A stretch of 64,000 nucleotides of DNA, taken from Lepidostoma basale (Eukaryota > Arthropoda > Insecta > Trichoptera > Lepidostomatidae). Numbering within the stretch: position 1 is the first letter of the stretch; each line of letters opens with the position of its first letter. The position numbers were made by a program, and so were the translations under genes. The notes under the pieces were generated by a model. The model ran no database searches. It was given only the letters and a program-made list of their open reading frames with translations, and was not told the DNA's origin. The DNA is taken from the NCBI GenBank assembly GCA_022606425.2, contig JAHDVF020000067.1, positions 1 through 64,000 on the forward strand, read 5' to 3'. Positions 18,847 to 38,724 of this stretch are shown piece by piece.

Positions 18847-19120
18847 TCATTGTTCGTATCCGATAAACTTCTTGTCTTCAACTTTGATTGCACTCAGATA
18901 ATTATCTAGCCACTTCTCGATTACAGGCAAATTGTCATCGCTCCATTTGGTTTCTTCCCGAATGTTCTTCAGCGACTTCTCGATTATGTGTTCCGCACTT
19001 CCAAACTCTCCCTGGCGGTCCACATACAACTTGGTAACCATGTCCAAACCTTCCTGGGTGGTGAAAACGCTGGTAGCTGAAGAAATCAAGCTGTTCCAGA
19101 GGTTCGTATTATTTTCAAAT
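18847..19120 (-). CDS. Aminopeptidase-like exon 14 and stop
   Basis: Acceptor TTTAATCTCTTGCAG. Encodes the last helices ([15 protein letters not shown]) and ends KFIGYEQ with stop TGA at 18849-18847. No serine/glycine omega site or hydrophobic tail follows, in contrast to GPI-anchored insect aminopeptidases. Confidence 0.95.
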
Positions 19121-22100
19121 CTGCAAGAGATTAAAAAAGTGATGAAATATTTTTTTCATTAGATATTTTTATTACGGTACGGCCACACCGGAGTGCCTGG
19201 GTAGGAGTCAAGACACAGTTCGATTGTGATCACGCCCTGTAGCGCGGGGCGTATAGTGTAGCCGGTCCCATAGTGCGCCATACGTTGGCGTTGCACAGTG
19301 GGCTGAAAATGAAGCTCCATAGACTTAGCGTCGCACACTGGATCCATTTGGCAAAAACAGGGACTTAGGGGTCGAACTCAGAACTTTGTCCTGATTTTTT
19401 AAATTAGGTCCTTTGTAAGATTCCAAACCACTTTTACATTTGAACTTTTCTTGATATAACTGCTAATTTCCAAGAAAAAAAATGTTATTGTTTTTTTTGT
19501 ATGAAGCAAAACTGATTTTTGCAATTATTTCGAAATCGGGTGGATACGTCAAAACCAAACTTAGTAGGGATTATAGAGGACATAATCCTCTACATTACTT
19601 GTTCCGACATTTACTTCAAATCTCTGCCCGTTTAAAAGCAGCAGACATTATAAATTTAATTAATGGTTACGAGTATAAAGTGGTTTCAGATTTTTTGTTA
19701 GATGCATAAATATGCTTGAATCACTCCATTCGTTTGTAAAGGAACGCGATGATCATTTATGCATCTAACAAAAAATCCGAAACCACTCGTAAGAATCAAT
19801 TAAAAATTATAATCTCTGCTGCTTTTAAACGGGCAGAGATATGAAGTAGATGTCGGAACAAGTAATGTAGAGGATTATGTCCTCTATAATCCATACTAAG
19901 TTTGGTTTTGACGTATCCACCCGATTCCGAAATAATTGCAAAAATCAGTTTTGCTTCATACAAAAAAAACAATAACATTTTTTTTCTTGCATATTTACAG
20001 TTATATCAAGAAAAGTTCAAATGTAAAAGTGGCCTGGAATCACACAAAGGACCTAATTTAAAAAAATCAGGACAAAATTCGGAGTTCGACCCCTAAATCC
20101 CTGTTTATGCCAAATGGATCCAGTGTGCGTCGCTCGAAAATCAAGTACCTAATTTGGAGAAAAAAAATATGCCCGCGTATTTCTTTACTGAATAGCAATA
20201 TTTTATGTCAAGTAACTTTTTTTGATAAAGCTATTATCAAAGATTTTCGAGCGACGCTAAGTCTATGGAGCTTCAATTTCAGCCCACTGTGCGTTGGTTC
20301 GTCGGGTGTTCATCTTGACTCCTACTCTAGCACTTCGGTGTGGCCATATCCTTATGGACTTGGACTTGGACTTGGATCATCTAGCTTACAGAGGTTCAGC
20401 TCTAATGGCGATTAAACAAATCTTTTGAATATTGTGTATAATATTTTGATGATAAAAAAACATTAATTTCATACGATTTTATTAGAAGAAATTATGTGTT
20501 TTGGCTTCATGGCAATGTCAGGTTTAAAACTTGAAAAATATTATCCTAAAATAAGGAATCCATGATGATCAATTATAAGATAATGCTTTAAAAGATGTCA
20601 TTTGTTAGTAATAATGAATATGGCGCAGTTCAAGCGAAAGTAAAATAAAATCGATCTTACCTAAGCCTTATGGTATCCCAGTTATCTTGTAAGAAGTCAA
20701 AGAGTGTTGTGTATCCCCTGGAACCACCAGTAAGCATGCTGAAGATCAAATAGATGTCGTTCTCGGTAAAGTTGCCATTTTCTTCTAAAATTGTGATGTT
20801 GAGCAGTTTTTGTATTTTCCAGCTAGTAATGGGACACCCAGCCAGAGTTTTCAGCAAGTAGGTCCTCTCACTCGCCTTCCTGCCGGGTGGGAAGTTAATT
20901 ATCCTCTGCAGACCAAAGTCCCACTCCTCTTGAGACCCCCATTTAAAAACGGGGCAGATGTATTGGTTATTAACTCTGAAAATCATCATTTGAAGAATTA
21001 ATTTCTCATGCATTTGCTGTTCGTTTAGTAAATGTTGGTTTCCGTTTTATTTTATTTTTCATTGTATATTCAAGTTAAACTATTATTATTAAAATGTCTA
21101 CTCTGAGGAAGGGCATCTGTATCCCGAAACATGTTTGTGAAAAATGCAAAAAGTGTTATGATAATACAATGTTTTCAAAAAACACAAAGTGATGGCGAAT
21201 ATAAATGAAATATTTTAGGATAGATTTATTTTTGTATAGTTTTATAAATATATTTTTTATTTAGATTATCTCATCAATGATTACTGACTTTAATAATAAT
21301 AATTAACCCAAAAAATATATTCTTATATTCCAACTATACACACCGATGAATGTATTATTGTTTTTTTTTTTTCTACAACAAGCGAGTTAGTGAATTTTTT
21401 TCGGGAACTTTTTTATATAATTTATTATTACTACTGTCAGATACATAAACTTTTAATTAGATTTTCAATAAATTTACTTTTGTATTCGAGTGAAAACTCT
21501 TGATTATAAGTTAAAATAATAATATTAAAAATTAAAACAGTTTTTTTAACCTTTAAATTGTATTTGGATTTATGGAATTTTGAAAAATATTAATAAATTA
21601 ATTTCTAGGCATATTTCTGCTTACGGATTTCCTTCGTCGGGATTTACCGCATCCATCCATTGCTTGAAAGCAGTTTGAGCTTCCTCAATACATGGTCTGT
21701 ATCCAGCTCTACACAGGAATGTTTTGGACATACTCCTGAGATTGATCTTCCACCCTTCGTCGTCATTGGTTTGAACTCCTAACTCTTCATATAGTGGTGT
21801 GAGCAGTATTCGGACGTACGTCTACAAACAGTTACAATCATCATCAGCACTTCGAGATATTTAAAATATAACCATGTCATCAACATCAACAAGAACACAC
21901 AAAATAAATTACGATCTGCGATATTTTTTTGTTTTTTTCACCTCGAATTTTTTGTGAACTTCCGAAGAATCAATGTGCCTCCCGATGTGATCGATCATTG
22001 TGAAGACAGGGTCCCAGACAAGGTGATTCCTCTCGTCCTTCAGGAAGAGGGTCATGTTGAGGGCTGTGGCGAAGCTCAGATCTCCAGCGTAGGCAAGGTT

Positions 22101-25100
22101 CCAGGCGTCATGCAGGAGCTTGGCTCGCGTGTACACCGGGATGTGGAGGCGAGATTCAGAGGTCAGATACTTGGCTAGCATATTCCAATTTCTGACGTCG
22201 TAGTTGACGGGGAACGGACCTGAATTACGTATAAATACTTTTAGCTTAATATTACACAAACGAATTAAATTAAAGAAAATGATTTTTGTTTTAACTTATA
22301 GTTAAACCTTATAGGGGGAGTAAAGGGGATTCTATTGACTCTTCGAGCGGTGCATGGCCATCACCGTGGTGATGGCCATGCTACGCTGGAGGATTGATCT
22401 GATCCCAAGTACCTATCCACACCTCCTCGACTTTGTTCTCCCCTGGAAACTATGCGAAATGTTAGAGATCGAGTGTGAATAACCTCGGTGGATAATATTG
22501 ATGCATAGGCTAACGTGGAAGGACACCTCGCCAACCCGTCTGACAAGCGTGGCGTTGTAATGCCAACCACCCCCCGTATGACATGTCATACATGGAGAAG
22601 TATGGGGGAGGCCTATGTCCAAAGAAGGGGAAGAAGAAACCTTATAATTAAATAGATATAGAACTTATTATTAAAAACACCACCGGTACAATATAGATGC
22701 GTGTTATCGAGGATTGACAGACATGGAAGCAGATGGATGAGGCCATCGCCCAGGAATGAACAGATACGGGCTAATGATGATGATGAGAAGAAAGAAAGCA
22801 TAAATTATTTTTCTTGAATCTGAAAAGTTGTACCTATTTCTTCCGGATTGACAATGATGAATTTATCACTCGACGGTAAATCTGTAATCTTAGTCTCCTT
22901 TTCTTTCTTCATCCAAATCTGCGGGACCGTGTCGGAGAAATTCAGTTTATCCTCTTTCACAATTACCAATGGAATCCACCAGATCAGCTTGTCTTGCCCG
23001 GGTACATCGTGGGGTCTCTCTCGCAGGTAAACCCTCTGAATAAAAATATATATGAATAAATATAATTATATTTCGGTTACAAGGAACATTTATACATATA
23101 CACAATTTTAACAATCAAATAAAACAGAGTGGTCACTTATAAACTAAAAGGAGGTGGAGTTATGTAAAAAAGTGGAGGGGGTATAATTAGGATTGAGGAG
23201 AGAGGAGATGTAACGGGAACATTTCGAACATGGGAATTGAATTCAAATTAAACTGGTTGTTTATTATATTTAAATTATTTTTTATGGGTTTTTTAATTTC
23301 TAAAATTAAAAAAAAATGTATTGTTAGGTTTTCATTATAAATTTACAAAAAAATTCTTTGTAATCGAAACATAATATTAAGTGTGTAATACAAAGGACAT
23401 ATAATTATATTTATTCAAATATAAATCCACAACACAAAATGAAGGCGAATATAGACGAGCGAATATAGAAAATTAAATGTTTTCTTTTCATTTCTTAGAT
23501 GGAAGATTTTACTACAGTAGCACCTTACTTGTTTCGCGGTGGCAGATTTGGATTCATAATTCCTCTCTACAGAGATGACCGGAAGACGATCCTTGGAAAT
23601 CCAAGATGAACCAATATCGATAACGCTCATATCTTTGGAGATGGATTTATCTTCGTGAGCTACGCTGTCCAGTGCTTTCCAAATATCATCCGCGGTAAAT
23701 GTTCCATATTTCCTAAAAATAAAATTAAAAAATAAGATCATAAGGTACATATCATTATTTATGCTATACTCGTTAATTCGTGTATATATGCAAATATGAA
23801 ATCTTTTATAGAATACGGTGAAAACAGTAAGAACTTTTATTGAAATTACATTTTGAAAACGTTGTATATAGTATTTGATAAGAGAGATTGATAATATATA
23901 TAAAATAAAATAAATTAAACGCATGAGAGATATTTAGATAAGATAGATAGATTGTGGCGATGAGGTTGGCAACCCATCACACCGCGTATCTCGCGGGGGC
24001 GAAAAGAGAAAGATGGAGTGTCGCATAAAGTGTGCGGTCCATTCTTTCTGCCTACCCTTTCGGGGAGACGGCGTGATGGTTAGTTAGTTAGTTAGTTAGA
24101 TTGATATGAGTCGATTTTTTTTAACTTGTCTATTAGCGAGCATGGATGAAGAATACAATTCAATTATTTATTTAGAACTCTGAAAACAATTGTGAGTATA
24201 TGCGCGTGTGTATAAAACAAAAAAATCATTTTTGTTTTCATTTAGCATGGTGTGATGGAGGATTGTTTCGAGTTCTATAAATCAAATCAAATCAGTTTAT
24301 TTCATCAATAGACATTACAAAATTAAGGTTTAAGGCATCTATTGAGAACAGGTAAAATAATATATTGTATACTCGTATAGTATACTACCAGAAGCGCATG
24401 AGAGATGGTGCGATATTAGGAAGACAAGATACTCTCCAAAATCAAGATTATTTGCCTTCTGAACGTACTTTCACTAATATGAAAAACGTCGATCTCCGAG
24501 GAGACCTCGTTCAGCAGATTAATTGCTCTTCCCACCGGTGTCACCAGAGCCAGGTTGGTTCTGGCGGCCGGTAGCAAAACAATCTATGCTGTAGCTGTCG
24601 GAGATATCTATCAGGGACAAAAAGCCGAACACCCTCCAGCACGGCCGAGTTCTCGAAATATCCCCTGAGTAATCTAAAGAGATGGGTTACGAAATACCCA
24701 TATTTTCGGAGCTGCAGAGCACAAAGAAAATGAGTATTTTTTAAATTGCGTATAGATAAATATAGTTTAAAATATTTGTTTATGGGATATATAAAATAAT
24801 ATTTATAAAACGCTATTTATCGATACACAAAATATGGTTTCAATTAATCTTACAAACTGAAAATGGCTATAAATTCTCACTTTTCATTGATAAACTTCTG
24901 AAGGCCCTTGGTGAAGGTCTTCTCTCCGAGGGTGTAGTTCAGCATCCGGAATACCAGCTCGATCTTGCTGCACGCTGTTTCTTGCTTCATGCCCGTGATT
25001 CTGGAGTGAGGATACCGCTTACTGAACTCGTAGTACAGAGAATACAGTATCGTCATAGGCCACTTTCCGTCCATTTCCAAACCATTGTCGATCTATAAAA

Positions 25101-28100
25101 CATTTGAATTTTAACACGTTACCTTTTTATGGAAAACAAAATTCAAATTCATCAATATTAAATATTTAATACGGAGTTTTACATCATTTCAACAAAAAAA
25201 TAGTTTCGAACCCCAAATAAACTATGATGGTTTAAAAATATTTAAACTTTTTTTGATATTTGAATTGATATCTCCGGCATGGAAAGAATAAGAATGACTT
25301 TCTTTGAAATAATTTCGGTTCCAAAACAACGACTATTGATTTCTTTAGAAGTAAAGATATACATTATGAATAGGAAACTCCATTGGCTGGATGGAGATGT
25401 GGGTGATTGCCACATCCTAGGCCAAACAACCCGGTGATTAACCCATTCTTCTTCTTTATATCAGCATTCTGTCGTCCACTACTGAACGTAAGCCTCTCTC
25501 AAAGAACGCCATTGCCCCCTATCAATTGCCGCTCTCTTCCATCCACATCCAATCCTTATTATATTGTCGGTCTAGCGGGCAAGGGAACGTCCAACTCTGC
25601 GGAATCTTGTGCATGTCTCCACTCCAGAATCCGTCTTCCCCATCGGCTGTCGGTTCTCCGAGAAATGTATCCAGCCCACCGCCACTTCAGCCAGCCTAAC
25701 TACAGAGTCACCTCAATCACCTTGGTTGTGGAGGGGGATCTGAGGGCAGGTGGTGTTCTCTTCTTCTCTGGTTTCAATCCTGGGATTGGTTTGCAGCAAT
25801 TTCCTCCATTATTCTCTTCCATTTTTCCCTGTCTTGTGCGGCTCTTTTGAGATCTGCATATGATGAGCAGCGTACGTCCACTAACAGGTCCTCCAGGTAC
25901 TCTCGGCGTGGGCGTCCCCTAGAGTTTGTCCCCTCGATCATACCCTCCATTATGGCATGCAAGAGACCTTCTTGACGTATTACATGGCCGATCCATCTTG
26001 CACGCCTTTCGGACAAGGTCCTGAGCAGGTGCCTTCCTCCTTCGATTCCTTGAAGAACTTCCTCATTCGTGATATGGTCTCTCCAGGAAATTCCAAAGAG
26101 TCTTCTATAGGACCACATCTCAAAAGCCTCTAGTCTCCGCTTATCCCTTCCGGATAGGCACCATGTCTCGCAGCCGTACATCAAGACACTCCATACATAG
26201 GTCTTGATGAGGAGTATTCTCAGTTTTAGGTCTATATTATTTGATTCTATTATTTTCGACCTTTTATTAAATGCAAGCCTAGCCTGATGTATACGGCTGT
26301 CGACCTCGCTCTTAGACCAACCGTCCCATGTTATTTTGCTCCTGAGGTAGACAAACTCCTTGGTGTTCTTTAGTAGAACTCCTGACATCACTACTCTCAT
26401 CTGATGTTGCGTTCGGCCTACAGTCAGCAGCTTTGTTTTGTCCTTATTATATTTATAGGTGGTGTTATAAACTGGAGAATGCGACTGATGGGCCGGAGAG
26501 TGGCAAAGAATTCTGGAGGAGACCGAGACCCATAGGGGGCTGTAGCGCCACTGTTGTTGTTGTTGTGCAGCTGACGTCATTTGCAATAAAAAAATGTCTT
26601 GAACTGCGGTTGAGAAAATTTACAGCTCAGACAGATAGTCCCAACTTATCATAATATTACGTACAATTTATTAGAAAGGAACTGAAGTTAAAAGGTTTAT
26701 AAGATATATTAAATTATCAACTGCAAATTTAGTTTCGGGATTCTCGAGTTTGCGGGAGCTTTGAGGCATAGGACCAACCAAGAGATCCATACGATGACCC
26801 AGCAGCCCCTTATAACGAGCACCGAAAGAGCCTGTCGCCTAGCATGGATTGGGCACGTATGCCGAGCCGAAGAGACCAGAGCAATCAAGACCCTGTACGC
26901 GCCTAGACCGACTGGAGTAAGACCTCTAGGAAGGCCTAGACAGCGCCTAATGGACAATGTTCTGGCTGATTTGGCTAGGTTGGGCGAATCGGACTGCTGG
27001 GAATAAAAGGCCCAGGATTGAGGAGCTTGGCGAAAAATCATCAAGGAGGCTAAAACTCTTCAAGAATTTTATGGCCATATGAAGTTAGTAAGTAAATTTA
27101 GTTTCCCGTACTTAAGTTAGAAACCATTTTTTTCTTGCAAATTTAGTTAGTCGTACTACAAGAGTTAATAAATTCATTTCTGTTTTTGTCACTCATGTAT
27201 GGCTCTCTCCATGGCGCGCTGGGTGAGACCAGGAACTTGTACCCCACACACCTTGTCAGCAACCACGTCTCGGCTTCATATGATTAACCCCACTGGATTG
27301 GAACTGGTGGAGGGGTGATTGATTGAGGGTGTGAATGATGGAATTACCTTGATAGCTGTAGCAGCAGATAGGTATCCCACCAACGCCTTGTTGATGTGGG
27401 CATCGCTCCACCACACAGGGGTCACCAGCCCTCCCAACCACTGGTAGTTCAGCTCCTGCGATAGTTGAAGGAACCCGCGGGAGGCAAGTTCACTCTCCCT
27501 GAGGTAAATATTATATAGCAATCATTTTTTAATAATATTCACAAACTTTTTCTAATTTAAAATAATAATTAATTAATACGATGTTTTTAAGAATGACTTC
27601 TACTTTTGTCTTTATTTCGACAGCGACCGGTTTCGCCAGGCTCGAAACGAAACCGGTCGCTGTCGAAATAAAGACACAAGTGGAAGTAGTTCTTAAAATA
27701 CATCGTTTTTTTAAATTATGATTTAAGATTAATTTCCATCAAAAGAGACTTCAGTGAAATCACTAGATTATTACTGATTTCTTGGACAATGACGTAAAAC
27801 TATATATTATGCATTAATTCTTGTTGAGAACGTGCATTTTATAGAAGTTGTATTATATCATGTGGGGTAACGTGCCATATATTGCATTGCTAGATAATTA
27901 TCAAATGATATTTCCCTTTAACAATTAGAAGCATATAATCACTCCCTTAAAAACAATCGTAATAAAACTTATCAATTACGTACGAACGTATTGACGACCT
28001 TCGTGGCCGAGTGATAAGTGCATTGACTACCACCCCGAAATTTCCGGGTTCCATTCCCGGCGAGGGCAGTGTGATTGTCACACTGTCTTTGGTCTGGTGT

Positions 28101-31100
28101 AGAATTCACGTGACAATAAAATGGCGATAGATTAGCTACCTATCACATGTCACGAGAATCACTATAATAGCTATAATACCCTTTACATCGATTGGACTCA
28201 TGCTGTCATGATGTAAAGAGCGATTCAACAAAATAATAAGAAATAATAATAAGAACCCCCCAATGTTAAATACTTAATACAATAATAGCAAAAATATATT
28301 TTTTACCTCTTTTTCGTATTATCCTTTCCTATTATTACAATATATAGGTACAAAGAGTGTATATAGTCTTTTTTTACTTTTATTTCTACAGCATTAAAAA
28401 AAATTGTATAAGAAAAAATATATATATTTCAATTTAAATCTGAAAGTAATTTATTCGTATCACCAAAATTGGGTTATTAACCAATCTACCTTACAAAAAA
28501 CCTTTATGATATTACTTTACTTTATAAATATTAAAATATGTCAGAACTTTAATAACATATAGATTTATATTATAATAGTTTAGTAATGCTTCCGATCGAA
28601 ACACCCCTTGCAAAGTCGGCTTCCGAAAGACGGCTTCCGCAACCTGTTGAAGTTTTACGTAGGACACTTGTAATGTGACATTTCTGGTGGAATATAAAAA
28701 GAAAAGGTGAAATGAATTACTTGAAAACGATGAGGCCCCAAGTATCTGCAGGCTTCACTCCTTGGTAGTTTGGCAATGCCACAAGGTCAAGCTTACTCAT
28801 GGGTAGTGGGAGTTGCCAAAATTCAGATATATGCGTGAAAGTTTTTTCAACCTTCTCAATTACTCCTTCAAGTGCGGCTGCGAAGTCAGTTCTACCCCAG
28901 ATGGTTATTTCTGTAACAATAAATATATACATATATATTCACTGTGTAAAAATATCTATCTAAACCGAATCAGAAAGTACACAAAAACGATTTTTGAGAT
29001 ATTTATACCTCAGAAAATATAATTAGGTACTAATGTCTTATATCCCTTACTAAAAACGGACGACTCAGTTCTTAATGAACTCAAAATAACAGGAAGACTA
29101 TCTATAATATGAAGTCGGCGAGTATTGAGTTTCTTTGGTCACATTGTCTGAAGAGAGCTTGGTAGCCTGGAAAAGGGTATTGTCACAAGAATTGTTCCAG
29201 GCAAAAGAATTAGAGGCAGATCTCCTACGCGGTGGTATAACCAGATTAAGGAGATGAACGAGGGAAACCTATACTCGGCGGTATGAGCTGCGGAGAACAG
29301 AGAGGGATTGGAGGCGTTTTGTTTTAGTCACGAGCAATTCCATAGATCACAAGCATCAGTAATGAGGAAACGAAGAAAGAAGAGAAGAAGATATCCTTCA
29401 CTATACAGGTATACTCTTGAAACATATCTAGGTAAGAATTTTTTAAACTTTTATCTGAGGATATTTACAGTATAGGAAAATTGAGAGAACTTAATCTGTA
29501 GTTTCCTTACATAAGAAATGAGCACGATACGCATGGCCGTGATCATTTATAGATAATTTTTGTTCTGATTATTGTTATATGACAGTAGCGTTGAAAACAA
29601 TTTGGTATTGTTAATTGTGAAATTTTTAACCGGTTTTCAAAAAAAATTAACACTTATTACGATTACTAAAATTTTTAAAAGCTTAAAATTCTGTACAACT
29701 AGTAATAATATTAATAAAAAATAATTGCTAAGTAGATACTTACCAATTTCTTGTCCAAACATCGTTAGATTAGTTTTGTTAACGCTTTCCAAATCTGAAA
29801 CGATCAATCCAACGGCGAATGTAGGGATTGGAGGAGTTGTTTCGAAGTGGTCCCAAACGCATTTGGACACTTCAACACTAAAAATAAAAATTACATGTAA
29901 GTTTATTACAACCCAAAGTTAAACAAAGTAGCATTCATTATATATTTTATGATTTTGTTTTAACCGCTGGTAATTTTCTTATTATTCGTTAATAATAATA
30001 ATACAATTTGTAGTTTTAGCGAGTGAGCACAAAGTTAATGCTAATAAAACAACGACCGGCCTATATTTTTTTTAGATGAACCGTTTAAAAGAAAATTTTA
30101 TTTGAAAATCATTTTAAATTTGTTGACAGATTCGTTTAGCTTGGATCATTGATCGAGATTAAAAAAAAGATTAGGGTATGAAGAGTTTATTAAAAGGTTG
30201 CTACTCCGATCTAATACGCTAGTCGAAATCGCAAAAATTACAATACTATTTAAAACATAAAGTTAAATCTGATATTTGAAGGTTCAAAAACCGTTCATCT
30301 CTGTTCTTAGTTATTATTATTAAATATTATTTATTAGTTCTAACTGATAAAAAAGAATTATTAGTACCTACTTATAAAAAATAGCACAGGTTAATTTTTA
30401 AATTTGAATTATTATATCGAATTTTAAATACGTTTTTTATTAGTCTTTCTTTGTTTAGTTTTTTTTATATATTTTTACACCTGAAGATGGAGGTAGGTTA
30501 GAGTGATATAAAAAACGTGTCACGGGTGGAGCATAAAGCAAACGTTTTTATGTACGGAAGTATCGCCGACTTTATCGCCTGTTACTTTACGTGTGATTTA
30601 GCAAGAGCATTTTGAGAAATTTACCAAAAATTAAATGGTCATACGAATTATAGAACAGAGTGTCCCAAAAATAGCAGACCAATTTTATTATTTTTAATTG
30701 TTTTGTTTTTCATTAAATCGTGTACTTAATCCATGCACGTGGAAGTTTATCAGTTTAACTAATTTTATTTTTTTATTTTATAAATACGTTAAAAAAAAAT
30801 TCAGAGTAGCTAGTCAGTCCTGAGAAAAAATGGTCAGAGTGCAAAAGGTTAAGAAACAGGCCACAAGGCCTACACTAAGAAGAAGAAAATCCGGATTTTA
30901 TTATCTCAAATATTAGGTCCGTTTATTCTTTGCTAATTTTAATATATAACATCGTATTCTTACGGTTCTTCGGTTGAGACCTGGAGAGGCATGTTCGACA
31001 GACTGTGCATATAAGCTGGTCTCAAGACGCTGATTTCAAATGGAGTCTTGTAGGAGGGTTCGTCAAAGCAAGGAAATACTCTTCTGGCATTGTTGGGCCT

Positions 31101-34100
31101 CAGGTGTAGCGCCACAGTAGACCTAATCAAATAAAAATATGATTTCAATTTATGTTAGTGCGTTAGTATGTAGTAATGCGTTAGTATGTACATTAAATAT
31201 AGAGTAATCTTAAAAAGATTAACATATGTAATCAAAATCTTCATAGATGGCACATTGAAACTGACATGTGAAATCTTTCATAGGACTTTAACATACTCGT
31301 ACATACAACTTCCAAAAATTTGTCATACAAGGTCGTAAAGAAATGTGGAATGGGGAATGTTGTAATTACATAAAGCGTGCGCTTAACCCAACCAATGACA
31401 GGTCATAAGTCCTGTAAACACCTTGATCAACCATATTCAGTTTCCAATTTGCATCTTCGTCTCTATTGAGATACAATTAAATACAATACAATTAAATCTT
31501 CAATTTATTTGTTTCTTTTTCAATTGTATAAAATTAGATGGCATATTTAGAGCGACGTTTAAACTAGATTATATTTTTCAATCACTTTGCACCTTTGCAC
31601 GCTTATTGGCCTTTATGTTTTACACCAATTGTGATCAAAAACTAATTTTTGACTCTATTGAGACTTAACAACTTTGTAATATCTAATCCTCAATTGATTC
31701 GATGGAATCAAATTGAATTTGGATAAATCGAACAATTTTATATTTTTTATCAGGATTAATTGTACCTCAATAGAGACGAAGATGTAAATTATTTTCTAGG
31801 GACAGAATATGGTGGTCGAGACGCTCACAGAACTTATGACCTGTCATTGGTTGGGTTAAGCGATCGCTTTATGTTAACAACATTCCCCATTCCGCCCTTC
31901 TTACGACCACCACGTCTGACAATTTTTTGGAAGATGTATATATGCTACAATGTTGAGGAACACTTCACATTTTTTAGTTCAATCTACACTAGCGCCATCC
32001 ATTAAGAATTTTTTTTATACCACATGGTTGTATTGTATTTAACCCTTAATTAGACTCACATAATAAACAATTTTGTAAATATAAAATGAAAAAATAATCA
32101 ATTAATAAAAATAAAAATAATTCAGAAGAATAACCTTAACAGATTGTTTTCGATATTTATTTTGTACCTTTCTTTTTTTTCTAAGCGTTTTAATTTATTT
32201 TAAAATATTACATATGACACTACAAATTTAGTGAACTAACTAACTAAAGTAAAGTTAATACTTAACAAAAAAGAAAAGTCAATATGTGATTCAGAATTTT
32301 CTCCGTTCAATATAATTTATCTTGAATTTTGAATCTTTTTACGTATTTCATTCTATGTACATACAATGGTTCATTTTTAACCAACCGGTTTCGACACAAT
32401 ATGACGTTTGTCACAATGAACGAAGCCAGAATTACTGCTGAAGCCGGTCTGTGCATAGAACAGAACACGACTAATTAATTTGTCTCACTCACACTCGCGA
32501 ATATAGAGAAGTGAGTAAACTTCAATATGTGACATTGCGATACAGTGAAATATCATTTGAATTTATTGGTAATCTATAAAAAATATAATGTAAATGAATA
32601 AATACAGTAGAACTCCAATCATCCGATCTCCGACTATCCGACTGACCGAGATGTTCGGTAAGCAATGACTTTCATTTACAGTACAGTACGTATAATAAAT
32701 ACTTGTAACTTTGCGTAACATGGAAATTGTTGTCTTTTCATTAAATTAATTAAAAAGCCATTTTTCTTTAAATATAGTTTTTTTTTCTCCCATTTTCAAA
32801 ATACATACAGTAATTAATTAAAATAGATAATTTTTTCGGAAAAAATCCAATTATCTGAATAGTGTCTGGTCCCAATTGATTAGGATAATGGACGTTCTAC
32901 TGTGAGTATTTATTATATTTATAATGATTATTAGAAGAAATATGTATTAGCTACCCAGCACAGGTTAGAAAAGGTTGACATTGTTTTTTTTTACCTCGCT
33001 TTATCATCGGCCACAGATGGCGCCCTGAAGAATGCTTCCGTCTTTTCTGTCTCCAATTTTCCCTCGAATGATATTTCTATACTCCCGACGGTACCATTAG
33101 GTATATCCTTAGCCAGACGAATGACTATAATTGGCCTCTTGGGATTCCTGTCAGTTCGGATAATGGGAAGTGGTGCCAGTTTGTAAAGTCTTGTCCTTAA
33201 AAAACATATTTGATTCAATTAAATCATAACAAAATTCGACGAAACTGTTCGGAACACAAGGAAAATAGCATATATAAGTTATTCAGGTGGGTTTTCTATA
33301 ATTTTCATCTTTCTAATATAAACAAATGTTTCAGACATACACCTAAAATTTCAAATCGATGATATTAGAATTTAATTAATACGAATGAAAATGGGTCGAC
33401 ACTGTGCGAACCAAGGGACTTCTAAAAACATCGGAGATGAAGGTCCTTAGATCAATTACTGGAAAAACTCTCCGAGATCGTGTCCGCAACGTAGACATAA
33501 GAAAAACTTGCGAAATAGAGGATATCGTTCAGTGGAGTGGATCCAGAAGAAGATACTGGAGGGACCATGTAGCCCGAATGGTGACAGACTTGCATATACA
33601 GCCGCTTATGAAATCCCCTCCGGACACCGCCCACCTGGAAGACAGCCTAAGAGATGGAGGGACAGCTGGACCTCATCATCCGGACGAGACATGATTTCTG
33701 TGTCACGGATCGTCAGATCTATTAATAGAAGAAGAAGAAGAATGAAAATGTATTGTTGGGAATTTATTATACTTTAAGGGAATGACATATTTCGCCTTTC
33801 TAAAGCATTATCAAATTACTTTTGATAATGCCTATGCAATGCGAAACATGTCGTTGCCATAAAATACAACATAATAAAAATTAGACGTTTTCATTCGTAT
33901 TAATGATTTACCTTATTGTTCAAGAAACTATATTCAGTGTTAGAATGTAATTAATTCGAATGAAAACGTCTGTTTTCTAGAAGTTTTATTATGTTTTAAG
34001 TGAATGACATGTTTCGTCTGCCTAAGGTATTATCAAAACATTTTATTAAACATTATCAAATTGATAACAAAATTGAAGAAAATAAAAAGTAAATCTTTCA

Positions 34101-37100
34101 AAAAAATTATGAAGATACATTTAAAATCAAATGATGGAAAGACGACGTACAAGCATGACGCATTATAGAATAAGAAAGAGACGTCAAGATATAAAAATGT
34201 GACAGGTCGTGTTCTCTGCCTCTCCGTCTAAAGAAACAGCGTGATGGAGAGTTGGTTAATAAAAACCATATTACGTATTAATGTTATATGGTCATCATTG
34301 CAGCAATATAGGGGGGCGAATTGAATCAACAAATAAAAAAATATAGCCGAAATAATAATATATTTTATTAGTATTCAAATAACCGTAATTACGAAGGAAA
34401 GTCCTTCAATAAATGGTATATTAAGTTAATTAATTAATTTAATATTTTTTTGTGTTATCTCTTTTATTAGGACGATCCATTGTCACCGGTAAAACATTGA
34501 TTTATTAAAATATAATTCCGCACTGTAAACAAATTTTTATTATTTCTTTATTAACTATGTTTAACTCCATATTAATCACTTAATATCGATGACCTTTGTA
34601 GCAGAGTGGCAAAATAAATGAAGACTGAAGGTCCCGAGTTAGATTCCCGGCAATGGCAGTGTGATTGTCACTGTCTGTAGTGTGGTGTAGATATCACCTG
34701 ACAATAAAATGGCTATAGATTAGCTTCCTATCACATGTCATAAGAATCAATAGCTAAAAAGTTGTATACAGTAATTTGGTTCAAATAATCTGATGACATC
34801 CCATGGACTGATATGGTAACCAACAATTAGGTGTTGCAAAGAGCTAGAGCAGAAAGAGAAATGTTGTCCAATACAAAGATTAGAAAAATGGCATATTTGG
34901 GACACATTATCCACAACGAAAAATACGGTTTGCTATACCTCATCATTAAAGGAAAGATTAAGGGTAGTCGTGGTGTATAAAGACGACAAATATCCTGACT
35001 AAGAAAAAATAGAGAGTGGACCAGAATCTAAAGCACGACCCGAGAGCACGTGAACACGCTGTGGGAAAACAGGTACGAAGAAAGCGCCACCGGAAGTGGG
35101 ACCAAGAGTTTTCTCCCCTCCGTAAGAGATGCCAAAGAGCTGAGGAAGAGAATAACACCTTCATTCCAGCTCACGCAAATTCTCACTGGACACGGTGCCA
35201 CGCTTTCGTACCTACACAGGTTCAAGCTCAAATATGCGCCGTTCTGCCCCTGCGATATAACAGCAGAGTAGACGGTAGACCATGTCATCATCCACTGCCC
35301 CGTCTACGCGCGAGAGAGATGGAGACTAAAGAAGGAGTGTCAACGGAGGAACATCGACCTCATCGACCTCCCAGCCATCCTGCGCAACAGAGAGACATTG
35401 GAGATCTTCGTTGACTTCGCAACCACTGTGGTCGATCGGTTGCGGGCAGCCAACAAATAATATTGCCTTCCACATTCTGATTAATGAATATTTTTCCACA
35501 GGCACGCCGCATCCTAGCTGAGTCATGTCTTGTAAATAAAGATCACTTCCCAATATAAATGTATTTTTTCCCACAGGTACACCGCATCCCAGCTGAGGTT
35601 TCCATGGTTCCCTCAGCTGTCAGACGAATGTCGGGTTGCTAGGTAGCTAGCCCATGGAATCACAAGCCAGGCACACTTACAAACACTAAGATAAAATCGC
35701 ACACAAAGACACTCTTCCAACTTAGCTTACACCGTCTTGAACAATTACAAAATCGAGACATTAAGACATAAAGACAATCAAGTAAAAAAAAAAACAGAAT
35801 CTAAAGAGTGTAGAAGTTAGCAATGGCTAGCACAGGACAGAGTAACCTACGCCAAGTAAAAACCGACGTCGGGGGGACCTGACATGGCACTTTAAAAATA
35901 AGATATATAATAATTTAATAAAACGATGTTTTCAACGACTTTCATTTTTGTCTTTATTTCGACAGCGAATAGTTTCGCCAGGCTCGCTGGCATCGACAGA
36001 CCGGTGATCAGGGGTGATTAAAATAATTACGTAAAATTTACTGAATTTAAATATTGGTTTATTTTTTATGTACTTTGTATACAACACACACTTTATTTAA
36101 AAAAATTAAATTAAAAAACCAAACACGTTTTGGACACACAAGTCCTTCATCGGTGATATATAAATATTACTAATATTTTTATGAATTTACGAATTTGGTC
36201 AGTTTTGACAGATATTAAAATTATTTATTTCGGAATGTTTATGCTTTTGTTTTAACAAATATAGTGAATAAATGTAAATTTAAAATAATAATTTAAAGTT
36301 CTTATTGGGGTCCAGATATTATCTTACAAAAAAGGAAATAAATCAAATATTGAATTTGATGTTAAATTTATTTAATTCTTTTAAACATTTTCTTTATTTT
36401 TAATTGCTTTTTTAATTTCTAAAATTTCGAGATTGTATTAAATGTTGGTATTAAATGCCAGCGAGCCTGGCGAAACCGGTCGCTATCGAAATAAAAACAA
36501 AAGTGGATGTTGTTAAAAAAAACATCGTTTTATTTCATTTTTATTTAAAATGAACTTCCATCAAGAGACTTCAGTAAAATCATTTGTTTTTTTAAAAAGA
36601 AGATATAAGTTTTTTAAATTGCATACTTAGGGTCTAATACTACGCCTTGGACATCAATGTGGAGGATATTCAAGTCCTGGTGTGCGTGGAGTGATATCTC
36701 AGAGCTGTCCTTGACCCAGGTGATGTTGATGAGCACGTTTCCCTTGAAGGTGCCCTCCCCAATGAAAGGGTCCAGATCGAGCTTGTACCGGGTAGGAACC
36801 ACCTCGCCGTCCAGCTTGGGCTCATTTATTAAACTGTGGGCCGCGCTCAGATCAATACTGCGTGGAAACCTCAAAATATTTGGCTAAAAAATATATAATC
36901 AAAGTTACATTGATTTAGATTTTTGTTTGCGATGACAACTTTAAGTACACCATTCACTTTGTTGCCTGCTCCAAACCTTCTTTCAGTTGGCTAGAAAGAC
37001 AGTGCACAATGGTGTTCTTCTACCGACCCTTATGTATGGAAGCAAAGCATGGAACTGGCAAAAGAAGGATGAAAGTAGAATAAATGCACTTAAAATGAGA

Positions 37101-38724
37101 TCTCTTAGAATAATGTGTGGATACTCTGTGTATGATAGAGTGTCGAATGAAAATATAAGAAGTGAATGCGGTGCGAATGATATAAGTGTGTAAGTAAGTA
37201 AAAAATAATGAAAGGATCATTAAGATGGTTTGGACATATGGAATGAATGAATGAAGAAAGAATGGTAAAAAAAATATATGTTAATGATGTAAATGGAACC
37301 AGAAATCCAACCGAAGACCGAGGAAAACGTGGCACGATCAAATAAATCAAATATTGAATGTCGGCCATGTGAGGAGTCAAAGAAATCGACGCGCGTGCAT
37401 GACACGATGTATGAATGTTGAGGAAGCGAGAGAAATATGTCAGGAAAGAAAAGTGTGGCAGTCCATTATTTTTGCCTACCCCTTCGGGGAGACGGCGTGA
37501 TGGTTAGTTAGTTAGTTAGTTAGTTACATTGATTTAATTTTGGAGTAAAATAGACTGAACATTTTTTTTTCATAAAAAACGCTCACTTAAAATTAAATAT
37601 CGTAATCATGTCTGTCCAGGGAATTCTAAGCATTCAGCGATAGAGGCACATTTCAAATGCTTCCAGTCTGTTTATTGAGTTGACTTTTAAGGTCCACGTT
37701 TCAGATCCATACAATAAAACAGACCACACATAGCATTTGTTTATTCTCTGGCGGAGTTTCAAATTTATGTTATCATTGCAGAAGAGCGATTTCATTTTAT
37801 TAAATGTAGCTTTTGCTGCCTCAATTCGACATTTTATCAAAACTTGGACTTGGACTTGGACTTGGATCTTCTGGCTTACAGAGGTTCAGCTTATGTGGCT
37901 ATTCCTCTTACGTCTGATGGGAACATTGTTGGAAGGTGATTTGGTGGGTTTTTAGTTTATTCGGGGGCATGATTTGTGTGGCCCGGAGTGTTCCTCTCAA
38001 GGAGAATTGATTTTGGGCGCTTGTGGCGGCTGGAAGTGTTTGAGTCGTAATTAGAGAGGTCTTTTATTGTGGGGTTGGGATGTGAAGGGAGTCCTTTGTA
38101 AAAACGTTCGGCAAGTTTCAGAATGAATTCATCTGTCATCGGGATTCCCGATTCTAGGTGCAGTTGTGTAATCCTGGTCCATGAAGGCGCACCAAGCGAT
38201 AAACGGATAGCCTTATTTTGCAGGATTTGGAGTTTTTGTATGTGACTCGAAGCTGCATAGTCCCAGATTGGGGCTGCATAAGTGAAGATCGGCTTTATAA
38301 CCGTTTTGTATATCAGGAGTTTATTGTCGATGCTTCGTTTACTGTTTCTAGCTAACATTGGGTAGAGGGCTGAGATTGCTTTTGACGCAGCTTTGACTTT
38401 ATTTGTAATGTGTGGCCTCCATGTCAGCTTAGAATCCAAGGTAACCCCATTTTATCAAAACGAAACATTATATTTATATGAATAAACAAAATGTATTTTT
38501 CCCATATTACATTTCGCAATAGATAACTGAAAACATTTTTTTATTAAAAAAAAATCATGCATAGAATGTTTAAGAAACAATTTCTCATAAATGAAAATTT
38601 GAAACTTCAATGTGTGAGTTTTATTTAAAAAAAATTACATAGCACTTACCCTGTTTGCTTTTAGAACACTAGCCGATACGCAGGCCACAGCGATCAGTAG
38701 TATTGTGGCACTAAGTGCCGTCAT
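18847..38724 (-). CDS. M1 aminopeptidase N-like protein without active site (14 exons, 942 aa)
   Basis: Peptidase family M1 fold, but predicted not to be a peptidase. The 14 coding exons join with every phase agreeing (2829 nt). Residues 1-18 form a signal peptide ([18 protein letters not shown]). Family text follows in order: [22 protein letters not shown] (190-200), [16 protein letters not shown] (315-322), [14 protein letters not shown] (358-371), [10 protein letters not shown] (437-446), the WWIPL block, [19 protein letters not shown], the C..A.Y.PC cysteine pair near 710, and a complete C-terminal helical domain. HEXXH is QELNY (353-357), the third zinc ligand Glu is K376, the catalytic Tyr is C430, and GAMEN is replaced by a segment one residue longer ending ADTWG (330-334). 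Only E354 of the catalytic set remains. The C-terminus (KKFIGYEQ) is polar, so no GPI anchor: a secreted soluble protein. Several N-glycosylation sites. A role as binding protein or decoy is inference only. Confidence 0.93.
19175..20356. repeat. 1.2-kb palindromic element in aminopeptidase intron 13
   Basis: The two halves are near-mirror images around about 19711-19760. The ends begin GGTACGGCCACACCGGAGTG and the complement of CACTTCGGTGTGGCCATATCC. Further in, GGAGTCAAGA, the CCAAATGGATCCAGTGTG words and a roughly 60-codon open frame ([16 protein letters not shown] ...) occur in both arms in opposite orientation. The right arm has an extra 125 bp (about 20130-20255) that is itself a small hairpin bounded by CGCTCGAAAATC. 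A related short element is at 62286-62455. Confidence 0.8.
20357..20415 (-). mobile_element. Jockey-like 3' tail, short minus copy
   Basis: Tandem GGACTT units followed by GCTTACAGAGGTTCAGCTC match the complement of the tail at 4396-4565 and the sequence next to 37957. It abuts the palindromic element's end. Confidence 0.65.
20661..20975 (-). CDS. Aminopeptidase-like exon 13
   Basis: Acceptor ATGATTTTCAG, donor GTAAGATC. Encodes [14 protein letters not shown] ... [11 protein letters not shown] ... [13 protein letters not shown], the usual repeat-like helices near the C-terminus. Confidence 0.95.
21100..21200 (+). repeat. Hammerhead-like motif in a Penelope-type terminal repeat
   Basis: CTGAGGA at 21103-21109, A, stem GGG/CCC (21111-21113 with 21123-21125), GAAAC at 21126-21130, then ATGTTT. 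The following TGCAAAAAGTGTT..GATAATACAATG..GATGGCGAATATA words recur, reversed, at 42830-42960 and in part at 47505-47660. Lies in aminopeptidase intron 12. Confidence 0.55.
21625..21821 (-). CDS. Aminopeptidase-like exon 12
   Basis: Acceptor ACTGTTTGTAG, donor GTAAGC. Encodes a helical segment ending with [14 protein letters not shown], the conserved cysteine pair of insect and vertebrate aminopeptidase N. Confidence 0.94.
21942..22219 (-). CDS. Aminopeptidase-like exon 11
   Basis: Acceptor ATACGTAATTCAG, donor GTGAAAAA. Encodes [14 protein letters not shown], then [20 protein letters not shown], the start of the C-terminal helical domain. Confidence 0.95.
22310..22645 (+). mobile_element. 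RTE-like retrotransposon 3' fragment
   Basis: High-GC island in aminopeptidase intron 10. Near its end the plus strand reads [20 protein letters not shown] text, a common close of RTE-type ORFs (YGGGLCP), after a disrupted GRPR-type region. Confidence 0.6.
22834..23035 (-). CDS. Aminopeptidase-like exon 10
   Basis: Acceptor TATTTTTATTCAG, donor GTACAACT. Encodes [12 protein letters not shown] and the beta-sandwich; ends FIIVNPEEI, phase 1. Confidence 0.93.
23529..23712 (-). CDS. Aminopeptidase-like exon 9
   Basis: Acceptor TTTTATTTTTAG, donor GTAAGG. Encodes [16 protein letters not shown], then [11 protein letters not shown] ... LPVISVER, the helix and strand before the C-terminal domain. 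Confidence 0.93.
23945..24105 (+). mobile_element. Retrotransposon 3' end with TTAG tail, second subfamily
   Basis: GTGGCGATGAGGTTGGCAACCC, ACACCGCGT..CGCGGG and CGAAAAGAGAA are shared with the minus copy at 58953-59125 and absent from the main subfamily. Both end in the same GGAGACGGCGTGATGGTTAG and TTAG units. Confidence 0.7.
24285..24725 (-). mobile_element. CR1/Jockey-like retrotransposon C-terminal fragment
   Basis: The minus strand reads [30 protein letters not shown] and so on with stops: the end of an RT-type ORF with the PAGRTN-like block seen better at 40690-40881. The 3' tail has AATCAAATCAAATCAG words. Lies in aminopeptidase intron 8. Confidence 0.65.
24881..25092 (-). CDS. Aminopeptidase-like exon 8: lost catalytic tyrosine
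   Basis: Acceptor AATGTTTTATAG, donor GTGAGAAT. Encodes [19 protein letters not shown] where active members read ISY.KGA.VLRML...LGE; the Tyr position is C430. Confidence 0.94.
25440..26450 (-). mobile_element. RTE-like retrotransposon, post-RT region, longest open frame
   Basis: The minus frame 26445-25774 is open and reads [98 protein letters not shown] and [11 protein letters not shown]. This is the classic C-terminal half of an RTE/BovB-type protein. The catalytic RT part is missing, so it is a 5'-truncated copy in aminopeptidase intron 7. The part at 25440-25740 resembles a second decayed 3' end. Confidence 0.9.
26760..27110 (+). mobile_element. RTE-like retrotransposon 3' fragment (plus)
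   Basis: Plus frame reads [39 protein letters not shown] then a stop and [16 protein letters not shown] different RTE lineage from the one just left of it and in the opposite orientation. Confidence 0.85.
27348..27498 (-). CDS. Aminopeptidase-like exon 7: lost zinc site
   Basis: Acceptor TATTTACCTCAG, donor [18 protein letters not shown] stands where HELAHQWFG is usual, and HINKALVGY where the W.NEGFA.Y with the third ligand is usual. Flanking WW.D and spacing (23 residues from Q353 to K376) are kept, so the alignment is unambiguous. Confidence 0.96.
27575..27710. repeat. Hairpin element, about 135 bp
   Basis: Arms TTTGTCTTTATTTCGACAGCG and its complement around CCAGGCTCGAAACG. Right arm contains GAAACCGGTCGCTGTCG, the 3' half of a hammerhead-like core (GAAAC, CGG, TC). 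The same family is found with widely separated arms at 35921-36535. Confidence 0.8.
27994..28240 (+). mobile_element. tRNA-derived SINE, tail type B
   Basis: A box TGGCCGAGTGA, B-box-like GGTTCCATTCC, GTGTGATTGTCACACTG, then the type B tail TACCCTTTACATCGATTGG..GCTGTCATGATGTAAAGAG. Lies in aminopeptidase intron 6. Confidence 0.9.
28721..28910 (-). CDS. Aminopeptidase-like exon 6: altered GAMEN region
   Basis: Acceptor ATTGTTACAG, donor GTAATTCA. Encodes [13 protein letters not shown] ... [11 protein letters not shown], then GVKPADTWG where active members read ..GAMENWG. One residue longer and no Glu or Asn at the substrate-binding positions. Confidence 0.95.
29060..29400 (+). mobile_element. 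RTE-like retrotransposon 3' fragment
   Basis: Reads in broken frames [48 protein letters not shown] and ends in GAAGAAAGAAGAGAAG. Lies in aminopeptidase intron 5. Confidence 0.7.
29744..29877 (-). CDS. Aminopeptidase-like exon 5
   Basis: Acceptor TTTATTTTTAG, donor GTAAGTAT. Encodes [20 protein letters not shown], matching the W..FE.TP.MSTY..A..V block. Confidence 0.93.
30964..31122 (-). CDS. Aminopeptidase-like exon 4
   Basis: Acceptor TTTATTTGATTAG, donor GTAAGAAT. Encodes [20 protein letters not shown], the conserved M1 AR..FPCFDEP block. Confidence 0.95.
31222..32004. mobile_element. MITE-like element with about 240-bp inverted ends
   Basis: Left and right parts are long imperfect inverted repeats sharing ATAGATGGC/GATGGCGCTAG, ACTTCCAAAAATTTGTCA, GGAATGGGGAATGTTGT, CAATGACAGGTCATAAG and CATCTTCGTCTCTATTGAG. 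A unique middle (about 31500-31740) separates them. Partial copies are at 51350-51455, 54180-54480 and inside 41332-41702. Lies in aminopeptidase intron 3; no transposase seen. Confidence 0.8.
32605..32902. mobile_element. Tigger/pogo-like MITE
   Basis: Left end CAGTAGAACTCCAATCATCCG follows TA; right end ATAATGGACGTTCTACTG is its imperfect complement. About 298 bp, no coding sequence. The right TA duplication is altered (TGA). Lies in aminopeptidase intron 2... that is, the intron between exons 2 and 3 or just after exon 3 on the minus strand (coordinates place it downstream of exon 3, in intron 3). Confidence 0.7.
32995..33195 (-). CDS. Aminopeptidase-like exon 3
   Basis: Acceptor ATGTTTTTTAAG, donor GTAAAAAA. 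Continues the N-terminal domain ([13 protein letters not shown] ... [14 protein letters not shown]), at the place of the usual GFYRSSY segment. Confidence 0.9.
33385..33745 (+). mobile_element. RTE-like retrotransposon 3' end with (GAA)n tail
   Basis: Plus frames read [39 protein letters not shown], then after a frameshift [12 protein letters not shown] and [13 protein letters not shown], ending in AGAAGAAGAAGAA. Same family as 60320-60780 (plus) and 63605-63870 (minus). Lies in the intron between aminopeptidase exons 2 and 3. Confidence 0.85.
33746..34060. repeat. Hairpin element plus an extra single arm
   Basis: Arms TTTAAGGGAATGACATATTTCG and its partner CGAAACATGTCGTTGCCATAAA flank 33800-33850; a third partial arm GAAAACGTCTGTTTTCTAG..AATGACATGTTTCG lies at 33955-34030. 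The 3' halves of the cores (GAAACATGTC) remain, while the CTGANGA part is worn down to TTGATAA. Same family as 50288-50465. Confidence 0.7.
34130..34260 (+). mobile_element. Retrotransposon 3' end, TTAG-tailed family, decayed
   Basis: Ends CTGCCTCTCCGTC..GAAACAGCGTGATGG, a worn version of the family end. Confidence 0.5.
34589..34795 (+). mobile_element. tRNA-derived SINE, tail type A, damaged head
   Basis: GACCTTTGTAGCAGAGTGGC, B-box-like AGTTAGATTCC, GTGTGATTGTCAC, then the type A tail GTATACAGTAATTTGGTTCAA. Confidence 0.8.
34796..35900 (+). mobile_element. RTE-like fragment joined to an R1-like retrotransposon 3' end
   Basis: 34820-35030 reads [34 protein letters not shown] (RTE type). 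From about 35040 a different element follows: [39 protein letters not shown], stop, [16 protein letters not shown], then [15 protein letters not shown]. The C.C.....T..H....CP..A..R pattern and G.G....YLHRF are typical of R1-clade elements, here with one in-frame stop. 35461-35900 looks like its untranslated tail. Confidence 0.75.
35921..36535. repeat. Hairpin family with separated arms
   Basis: Left arm ACGATGTTTTCAACGACTTTC..GTCTTTATTTCGACAGCG..TTTCGCCAGGCTCGC (35932-36000) and right arm GCCAGCGAGCCTGGCGAAACC..ATCGAAATAAAAAC..AACATCGT (36460-36533) belong to the same family as 27575-27710. The 450 bp between includes a minus-strand hammerhead-like remnant near 36110-36165 with stem AGGAC/GTCC and AAAAC in place of GAAAC. 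Confidence 0.65.
36627..36883 (-). CDS. Aminopeptidase-like exon 2
   Basis: Acceptor TATTTTTTAG, donor GTATGC from 36626, phase 2 out. Starts PNILRFPRS and covers the N-terminal beta domain ([19 protein letters not shown]). Confidence 0.92.
36985..37526 (+). mobile_element. Retrotransposon 3' end with (TTAG)n tail
   Basis: Reads [54 protein letters not shown], then frameshifts, [20 protein letters not shown] and [12 protein letters not shown] text, stop and five TTAG units. Second best copy of the family. Lies in aminopeptidase intron 1. Confidence 0.88.
37615..38445 (-). mobile_element. Jockey-like retrotransposon C-terminal ORF fragment, with an RTE piece at its tail
   Basis: 38439-37957 on the minus strand is an open 160-codon frame: [72 protein letters not shown]. 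This is the end of a Jockey-clade ORF2 after the RT core. Its tail with AAGTCC units follows to 37846. From 37845 to 37615 an RTE-type piece ([19 protein letters not shown]) abuts it. Both lie in aminopeptidase intron 1. Confidence 0.88.
38650..38724 (-). CDS. Aminopeptidase-like exon 1: signal peptide
   Basis: ATG at 38724-38722, 25 codons, donor GTAAGTGC from 38649. The hydrophobic leader followed by ACVSA-S fits signal peptidase cleavage. A likely acceptor (GCTTTTTTTCCAG) lies 25-30 bases before the ATG, so the 5' leader is probably spliced. Confidence 0.88.

Follow-up and report, generated by a model that had tools for sequence, protein, structure and literature searches.

A Lepidostoma basale gene from an old insect branch of M1 aminopeptidase relatives without the catalytic set, with constraint apparently moved to the C-terminal domain

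The stretch of DNA analysed here, the whole of which is called the window, comprises 64,000 nucleotides of the Lepidostoma basale (Insecta, Trichoptera) contig JAHDVF020000067.1 (assembly GCA_022606425.2, positions 1 to 64,000), and the subject is a gene on its minus strand that encodes a relative of the M1 aminopeptidases. Rebuilt from the raw sequence, the coding stretch runs from 38724 to 18850, where 14 exons and 13 GT...AG introns of compatible phases give a stop-free frame of 942 amino acids, the same model that an earlier reading of the letters without database searches (the sequence-only reading) had put forward. The window protein matches Pfam Peptidase_M1_N at residues 54–251 (103.7 bits against a curated cut-off of 25.8), Peptidase_M1 at residues 294–482 (61.4 against 27.7), and ERAP1_C at residues 580–906 (217.5 against 38.2), and the M1 fold is present in the predicted model of P0001, a relative 61% identical to it, and not the window protein itself. 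Judged by simple hydropathy rather than a dedicated signal predictor, the N-terminus is hydrophobic and no tail of the glycosylphosphatidylinositol (GPI) type is seen. A tblastn search with ten M1 queries (the window protein, four of its relatives, and five active proteins) detected no second M1 copy or fragment beyond the 14 exons anywhere in the window, at E values up to 1. At gathering scores, Rfam matched nothing in the window, and NCBIfam was uninformative, with P0001 and an active protein alike scoring below the curated cut-offs.

At the old active site, QELNY (residues 353–357) stands in place of HEXXH, NKALV (375–379) puts Lys at the third-ligand site (K376, exactly 23 residues after the first-His position), and ACSK (429–432) puts C430 at the position of the catalytic Tyr, each where the sequence-only reading had located it. 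Its further claim that every catalytic residue is replaced holds for the zinc ligands and the Tyr and fails for the general base, as the Glu is kept (E354). Three other changes were not mentioned there. The GAMEN motif is altered to GVKPAD (326–331), which is one residue longer and in which the Glu has become a conservative Asp (D331); moreover, two loops are shortened, with 21 residues from the GAMEN Trp to the first-His position versus 32 in 5 of 5 active rows printed, and 55 residues from the third-ligand to the Tyr position versus 64 in the same number of active rows. A damselfly relative is intermediate for both loops (28 and 57 residues, respectively).

Relatives were collected by two protein searches, one with the window protein (best 120 of 503 hits listed) and one with a Drosophila relative (best 120 of 310), which together gave at least 151 different relatives, all aligned to the window protein. 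The taxon spread rests on the best 120 matches per search, and no absence is claimed for Apocrita, Hemiptera, or other orders; within this scope, all named source organisms are insects (Lepidoptera, Neuroptera, Coleoptera, Diptera, two sawflies, a cockroach, and two damselflies), full-length relatives occur in many insect orders, and the window protein is 61% identical to relatives from a lacewing and a skipper butterfly. The five catalytic positions can be scored in 149 of the 151, with P0137 and P0145 gapped there. No zinc ligand is present in 127 of these 149 rows, one in 20, two in 2, and all three in none, and the catalytic Tyr occurs in none; the sequence-only reading had named orthologues with a normal HEXXH as evidence against itself, and a complete active site is found in 0 of 149. 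The rows closest to a zinc site are P0094 (Parnassius mnemosyne), with HEXXH as HEVLH and both His, yet with Lys376 and Ser430, and P0140 (the sawfly Athalia), with the first His and Glu376, but with Phe357 and Ala430; the HEXXH of P0094 is perhaps a chance return. In the databases, the relatives are mostly named 'aminopeptidase N'. The Blattella row P0146 (1579 amino acids) looks like an uncertain gene model. Among P0121–P0138, which are mostly from Drosophila, changes to the PADNWG and Q353 signatures are frequent, and the branch looks looser there. The D. melanogaster gene was not seen by name among the listed matches, and it may lie in the 90% cluster whose 11 members are headed by D. mauritiana (P0127).

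The boundary of this branch appears in a third protein search, with the damselfly relative as the query (best 120 of 207 hits listed), where the proteins that follow outside it, P0152 onwards (cricket, damselfly, crayfish, crab, and other sources), retain HEXXH, the Glu, and the Tyr. The outside proteins inspected were P0152–P0190, with P0191–P0261 left out; the active site, Tyr included, is intact in 15 of the 15 that were scored and, by eye, in the other 24 of these 39. A gene tree was then built from 59 rows (the window protein, 43 of the 151 relatives, picked so as to cover the taxa, and the 15 scored outside proteins) over 873 alignment columns from which the catalytic stretches had been removed, using a quick LG+G4 run in which some outside branches are long. 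All 44 branch rows fall on one side of the tree, with a value of 100 in the SH-like approximate likelihood ratio test (SH-aLRT). With the outside proteins as root, Odonata branch off first, then Blattella and the sawflies, and after them come lacewing, beetles, flies, and moths, with no resolution at the lacewing–beetle fork; this broadly matches the insect phylogeny, and the window gene is sister to 15 Lepidoptera (SH-aLRT 99), a placement that suits a caddisfly, as it would a basal moth. The window gene is a member of an old and widespread insect class of M1 proteins without the catalytic set, and no oddity of a single insect.

The distribution of constraint along these proteins differs from that in active enzymes. 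Eight distant members of the branch have mean identities of 0.40 (domain I), 0.48 (domain II, the catalytic one), 0.48 (domain III), and 0.65 (domain IV), versus 0.47, 0.56, 0.36, and 0.39 in six active proteins of the aminopeptidase N (APN) type; as a difference of differences, this amounts to 0.33 (site bootstrap 0.27 to 0.39) and, when all 15 active rows serve as the reference, to 0.31 (0.26 to 0.36). Domain IV is more conserved than domain II in 913 of 946 branch pairs versus 0 of 105 active pairs, both being counts of non-independent pairs that share sequences, and in 0 of 77 pairs over five active groups (PSA-like, GluAP-like, fungal, plant, and APN, as grouped and labelled by the analyst), in which the proteins are partly the same. 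For instance, the window protein and its relative from the fly Condylostylus are identical at 0.79 of positions in domain IV and 0.53 in domain II. At a level of at least 90%, the branch has 129 of 345 positions fixed in domain IV, with 61 rare or absent in the 15 active rows (724, 754, 759, and 784 are examples of such class-specific positions), and 51 of 245 in domain II, with 23 class-specific; because diversity is greater among the active rows than within the branch, these numbers are to be compared between domains and not between groups. The alignments indicate that in this branch constraint moved from the catalytic domain to the C-terminal ERAP1_C domain (IV). Conservation of the protein across insect orders is, furthermore, a strong argument against neutral decay, and with the frame open as well, the earlier view of an intact gene rather than a pseudogene stands.

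A second regularity concerns the old metal pocket. Gln178 and Glu180 of PSA are named as N-terminal-domain residues at the active site in PMC10343166, and position 186 of the window protein would correspond to this Glu180 by alignment. Arg or Lys stands there in 136 of 146 branch rows but in none of the 15 active rows, which have Glu, Ser, or Gln, and position 376, the site of the ligand Glu, is Lys or Arg in 115 of 150 rows; one or both of these positions are basic in all 146 branch rows with letters at both. We infer that these basic side chains may replace the charge of the metal.

The exons of the M1 gene are given in Table 1, together with an inverted repeat in its intron 13 and the frames of other kinds that were noted elsewhere in the window.

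Table 1. Coordinates of the M1-like gene and of other features in the window
Feature	Position	Strand	Description
Exon 1	38650..38724	-	Start codon; hydrophobic signal-like N-terminus, residues 1–25
Exon 2	36627..36883	-	Domain I begins
Exon 3	32995..33195	-	Domain I
Exon 4	30964..31122	-	Domain I; PCFDEP and pocket position R186
Exon 5	29744..29877	-	Domain I ends, domain II begins
Exon 6	28721..28910	-	Domain II; GVKPAD (326–331) at the GAMEN site
Exon 7	27348..27498	-	QELNY (353–357) at the HEXXH site; K376 at the ligand-Glu site
Exon 8	24881..25092	-	Class-specific helix block (about 401–417); C430 at the catalytic Tyr site
Exon 9	23529..23712	-	Domain II ends
Exon 10	22834..23035	-	Domain III; conserved 10-residue block 524–533
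Exon 11	21942..22219	-	Domain IV (ERAP1_C) begins
Exon 12	21625..21821	-	Domain IV
Exon 13	20661..20975	-	Domain IV
Exon 14	18847..19120	-	Domain IV ends; C-terminus without hydrophobic tail; stop TGA 18849–18847
Inverted repeat, intron 13	19395–19657 and 19803–20065		Arms of 263 nucleotides, 95% complementary
Adhesion-type G-protein-coupled receptor	54641–58516	+	1291-codon open frame with GPS and 7tm_2; acceptor-like T-rich AG ahead
Thiamin pyrophosphokinase frame	10836–11246	-	Exon-like; B1-binding domain above cut-off, catalytic domain just below
Long frame	25774–26619	-	Resembles a reverse-transcriptase remnant; no Pfam match at 1e-3
Long frame	53299–53925	-	Resembles a reverse-transcriptase remnant; no Pfam match at 1e-3
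Long frame	37957–38451	-	Resembles a reverse-transcriptase remnant; no Pfam match at 1e-3

The gene probably encodes a secreted, soluble, zinc-free, and non-cutting protein of an ancient dead M1 branch that binds an extracellular partner through its domain III/IV arm, an account that we favour with some, though by no means full, confidence. An ancient branch of the M1 aminopeptidases would have lost its catalytic set while the gene itself stayed intact; the product, as predicted from its sequence, would be secreted and soluble, carry no catalytic zinc, and cleave no peptides. Its emptied and more basic cavity, with R186 and K376 beside E354 and D331, may be held by salt bridges instead of a metal, and the selected function would be partner binding outside the cell through the conserved arm, as a ligand, co-receptor, or scaffold. 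The sequence-only reading, which the analysis supports as to the sequence and the kind of protein, had proposed that the protein was kept for binding, as a decoy, or as a scaffold; this agrees with the results, and given that constraint has shifted to domain IV, binding becomes the most likely of the three. It is conceivable, as a more tentative generalization, that a pseudo-aminopeptidase acting outside the cell is common to the winged insects as a hitherto undescribed, general ligand, co-receptor, or matrix factor, that basic residues replace the zinc in it, and that its role passed from the active site to the C-terminal arm about 400 million years ago.

Several observations weigh against the partner-binding account. 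Glu is found at position 354 in 146 of the 149 fully scored rows (147 of 150 rows overall), and this near-invariance would also fit a cavity with some unusual catalytic or ligand-binding role. Of the ligands, the first His occurs in 16 rows, the second His in 6, and Glu376 in both sawflies, so the ligands were not necessarily lost in one step; since the damselflies and the cockroach have Lys376, the third ligand was either regained in the sawflies or lost more than once. A hydrophobic N-terminus is missing from 12 of 126 relatives. Domain IV is not the better conserved in 33 of the 946 branch pairs, which involve mostly moths and butterflies, show small differences where printed, and never include the window gene. 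Conservation of domain IV could, moreover, serve dimerisation or stability instead of a foreign partner. Finally, no partner, phenotype, or expression was found for Lepidostoma basale, in which no transcript search was made.

Among the alternatives, a dead subunit that regulates active M1 aminopeptidases in mixed dimers through domain IV is rather unlikely, although the constraint does lie on that domain and mammalian APN dimerises through it, because domain IV of the active APN-type proteins is poorly conserved (39%), which would not be expected if they were fixed dimer partners. A peptide carrier or sink, in which the old substrate cavity binds peptides or small ligands uncut, would agree with the retention of the cavity acids (E354 as counted above, Asp331 in 125 of 147 relatives) and has a parallel in PSA, which active-site mutations turned into an inactive binding protein, according to the title of Thompson 2003; however, the acidic amine-binding environment is reversed by the basic residues at 186 and 376, and the best conserved part is not the catalytic domain, so that this, too, is improbable. 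An enzyme with another mechanism, based on E354 and working without a canonical zinc site, appears very unlikely: the almost invariant Glu and the partial sites of P0094 and P0140 speak for it, but the three ligands occur together in no scorable relative and the Tyr in none, the third ligand is Lys or Asn in most rows, GAMEN is lost, and domain II has given up constraint in comparison with domain IV. That the gene is a young pseudogene, or one under relaxed selection that is open by chance, draws some support from the fact that selection was judged on proteins and from a single DNA copy rather than at the codon level; it is hardly credible, however, as relatives are full-length across many insect orders, with 61% identity to lacewing and skipper butterfly and 79% in domain IV to a fly.

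Dead enzymes under selection show what a fold does besides catalysis, and the inverted conservation offers a testable place, domain IV, for a partner search in flies, beetles, or moths. The class is old, spanning damselflies to flies and moths, and mostly stands under a misleading 'aminopeptidase N' name; surveys in which insect APNs are taken for digestive enzymes or for receptors of Bacillus thuringiensis (Bt) toxins may therefore include this dead class.

Among known systems, the nearest is the moth APN class 10, the APN classes having reportedly been given their names by Guo et al. in 2020. P0009, a protein of 939 amino acids from Anticarsia gemmatalis, falls in the dead M1 branch, and judging by species, length, and missing motifs, it is apparently AgAPN10. 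AgAPN10 also has 939 amino acids, lacks the full GAMENWG and HEXXHX18E motifs, carries a signal peptide but no GPI anchor, and in quantitative reverse-transcription PCR of the larval midgut showed no significant change on Bt exposure (PMC11554492). It is one of eight APNs in that Bt toxin study, and the available parts of the article hold no word on an insect-wide or dead class or on a shift of constraint (PMC11554492). HaAPN10 of Helicoverpa, of which only the wild-type transcript was detected (PMC6722899), is a candidate member of the same class as the window gene. In the open-licence PMC literature, as covered by titles and abstract starts and with subscription papers outside this scope, no paper on an insect-wide dead APN class was found. 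The class is already in the databases and partly noticed in print; apparently new are how widespread and how old the loss is, the conserved substitution of basic residues at the metal site, and the shift of constraint into domain IV.

Compared with the active M1 enzymes (APN, ERAP1, PSA, and Anopheles APN1), the window protein and its relatives have the same domains and fold, whereas the zinc site, the Tyr, GAMEN, and two loops are changed in the branch and the conservation pattern is inverted. A comparison by description only can be drawn with MNP-1 of the nematode Caenorhabditis elegans, likewise an M1 homologue with lost zinc residues, which is said, in the title of a cited study, to interact with the Ror kinase CAM-1. 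MNP-1 is presumed to be inactive, without three of the four zinc-binding residues, and is required for muscle and neuronal cell migration (PMC10368266). The PSA–SWELL1 complex (PDB 9o5k, by its title) is, similarly, a case of an M1-fold protein bound to another protein; however, PSA is an active enzyme, and what it has in common with the window protein is only the idea of an M1 binding partner.
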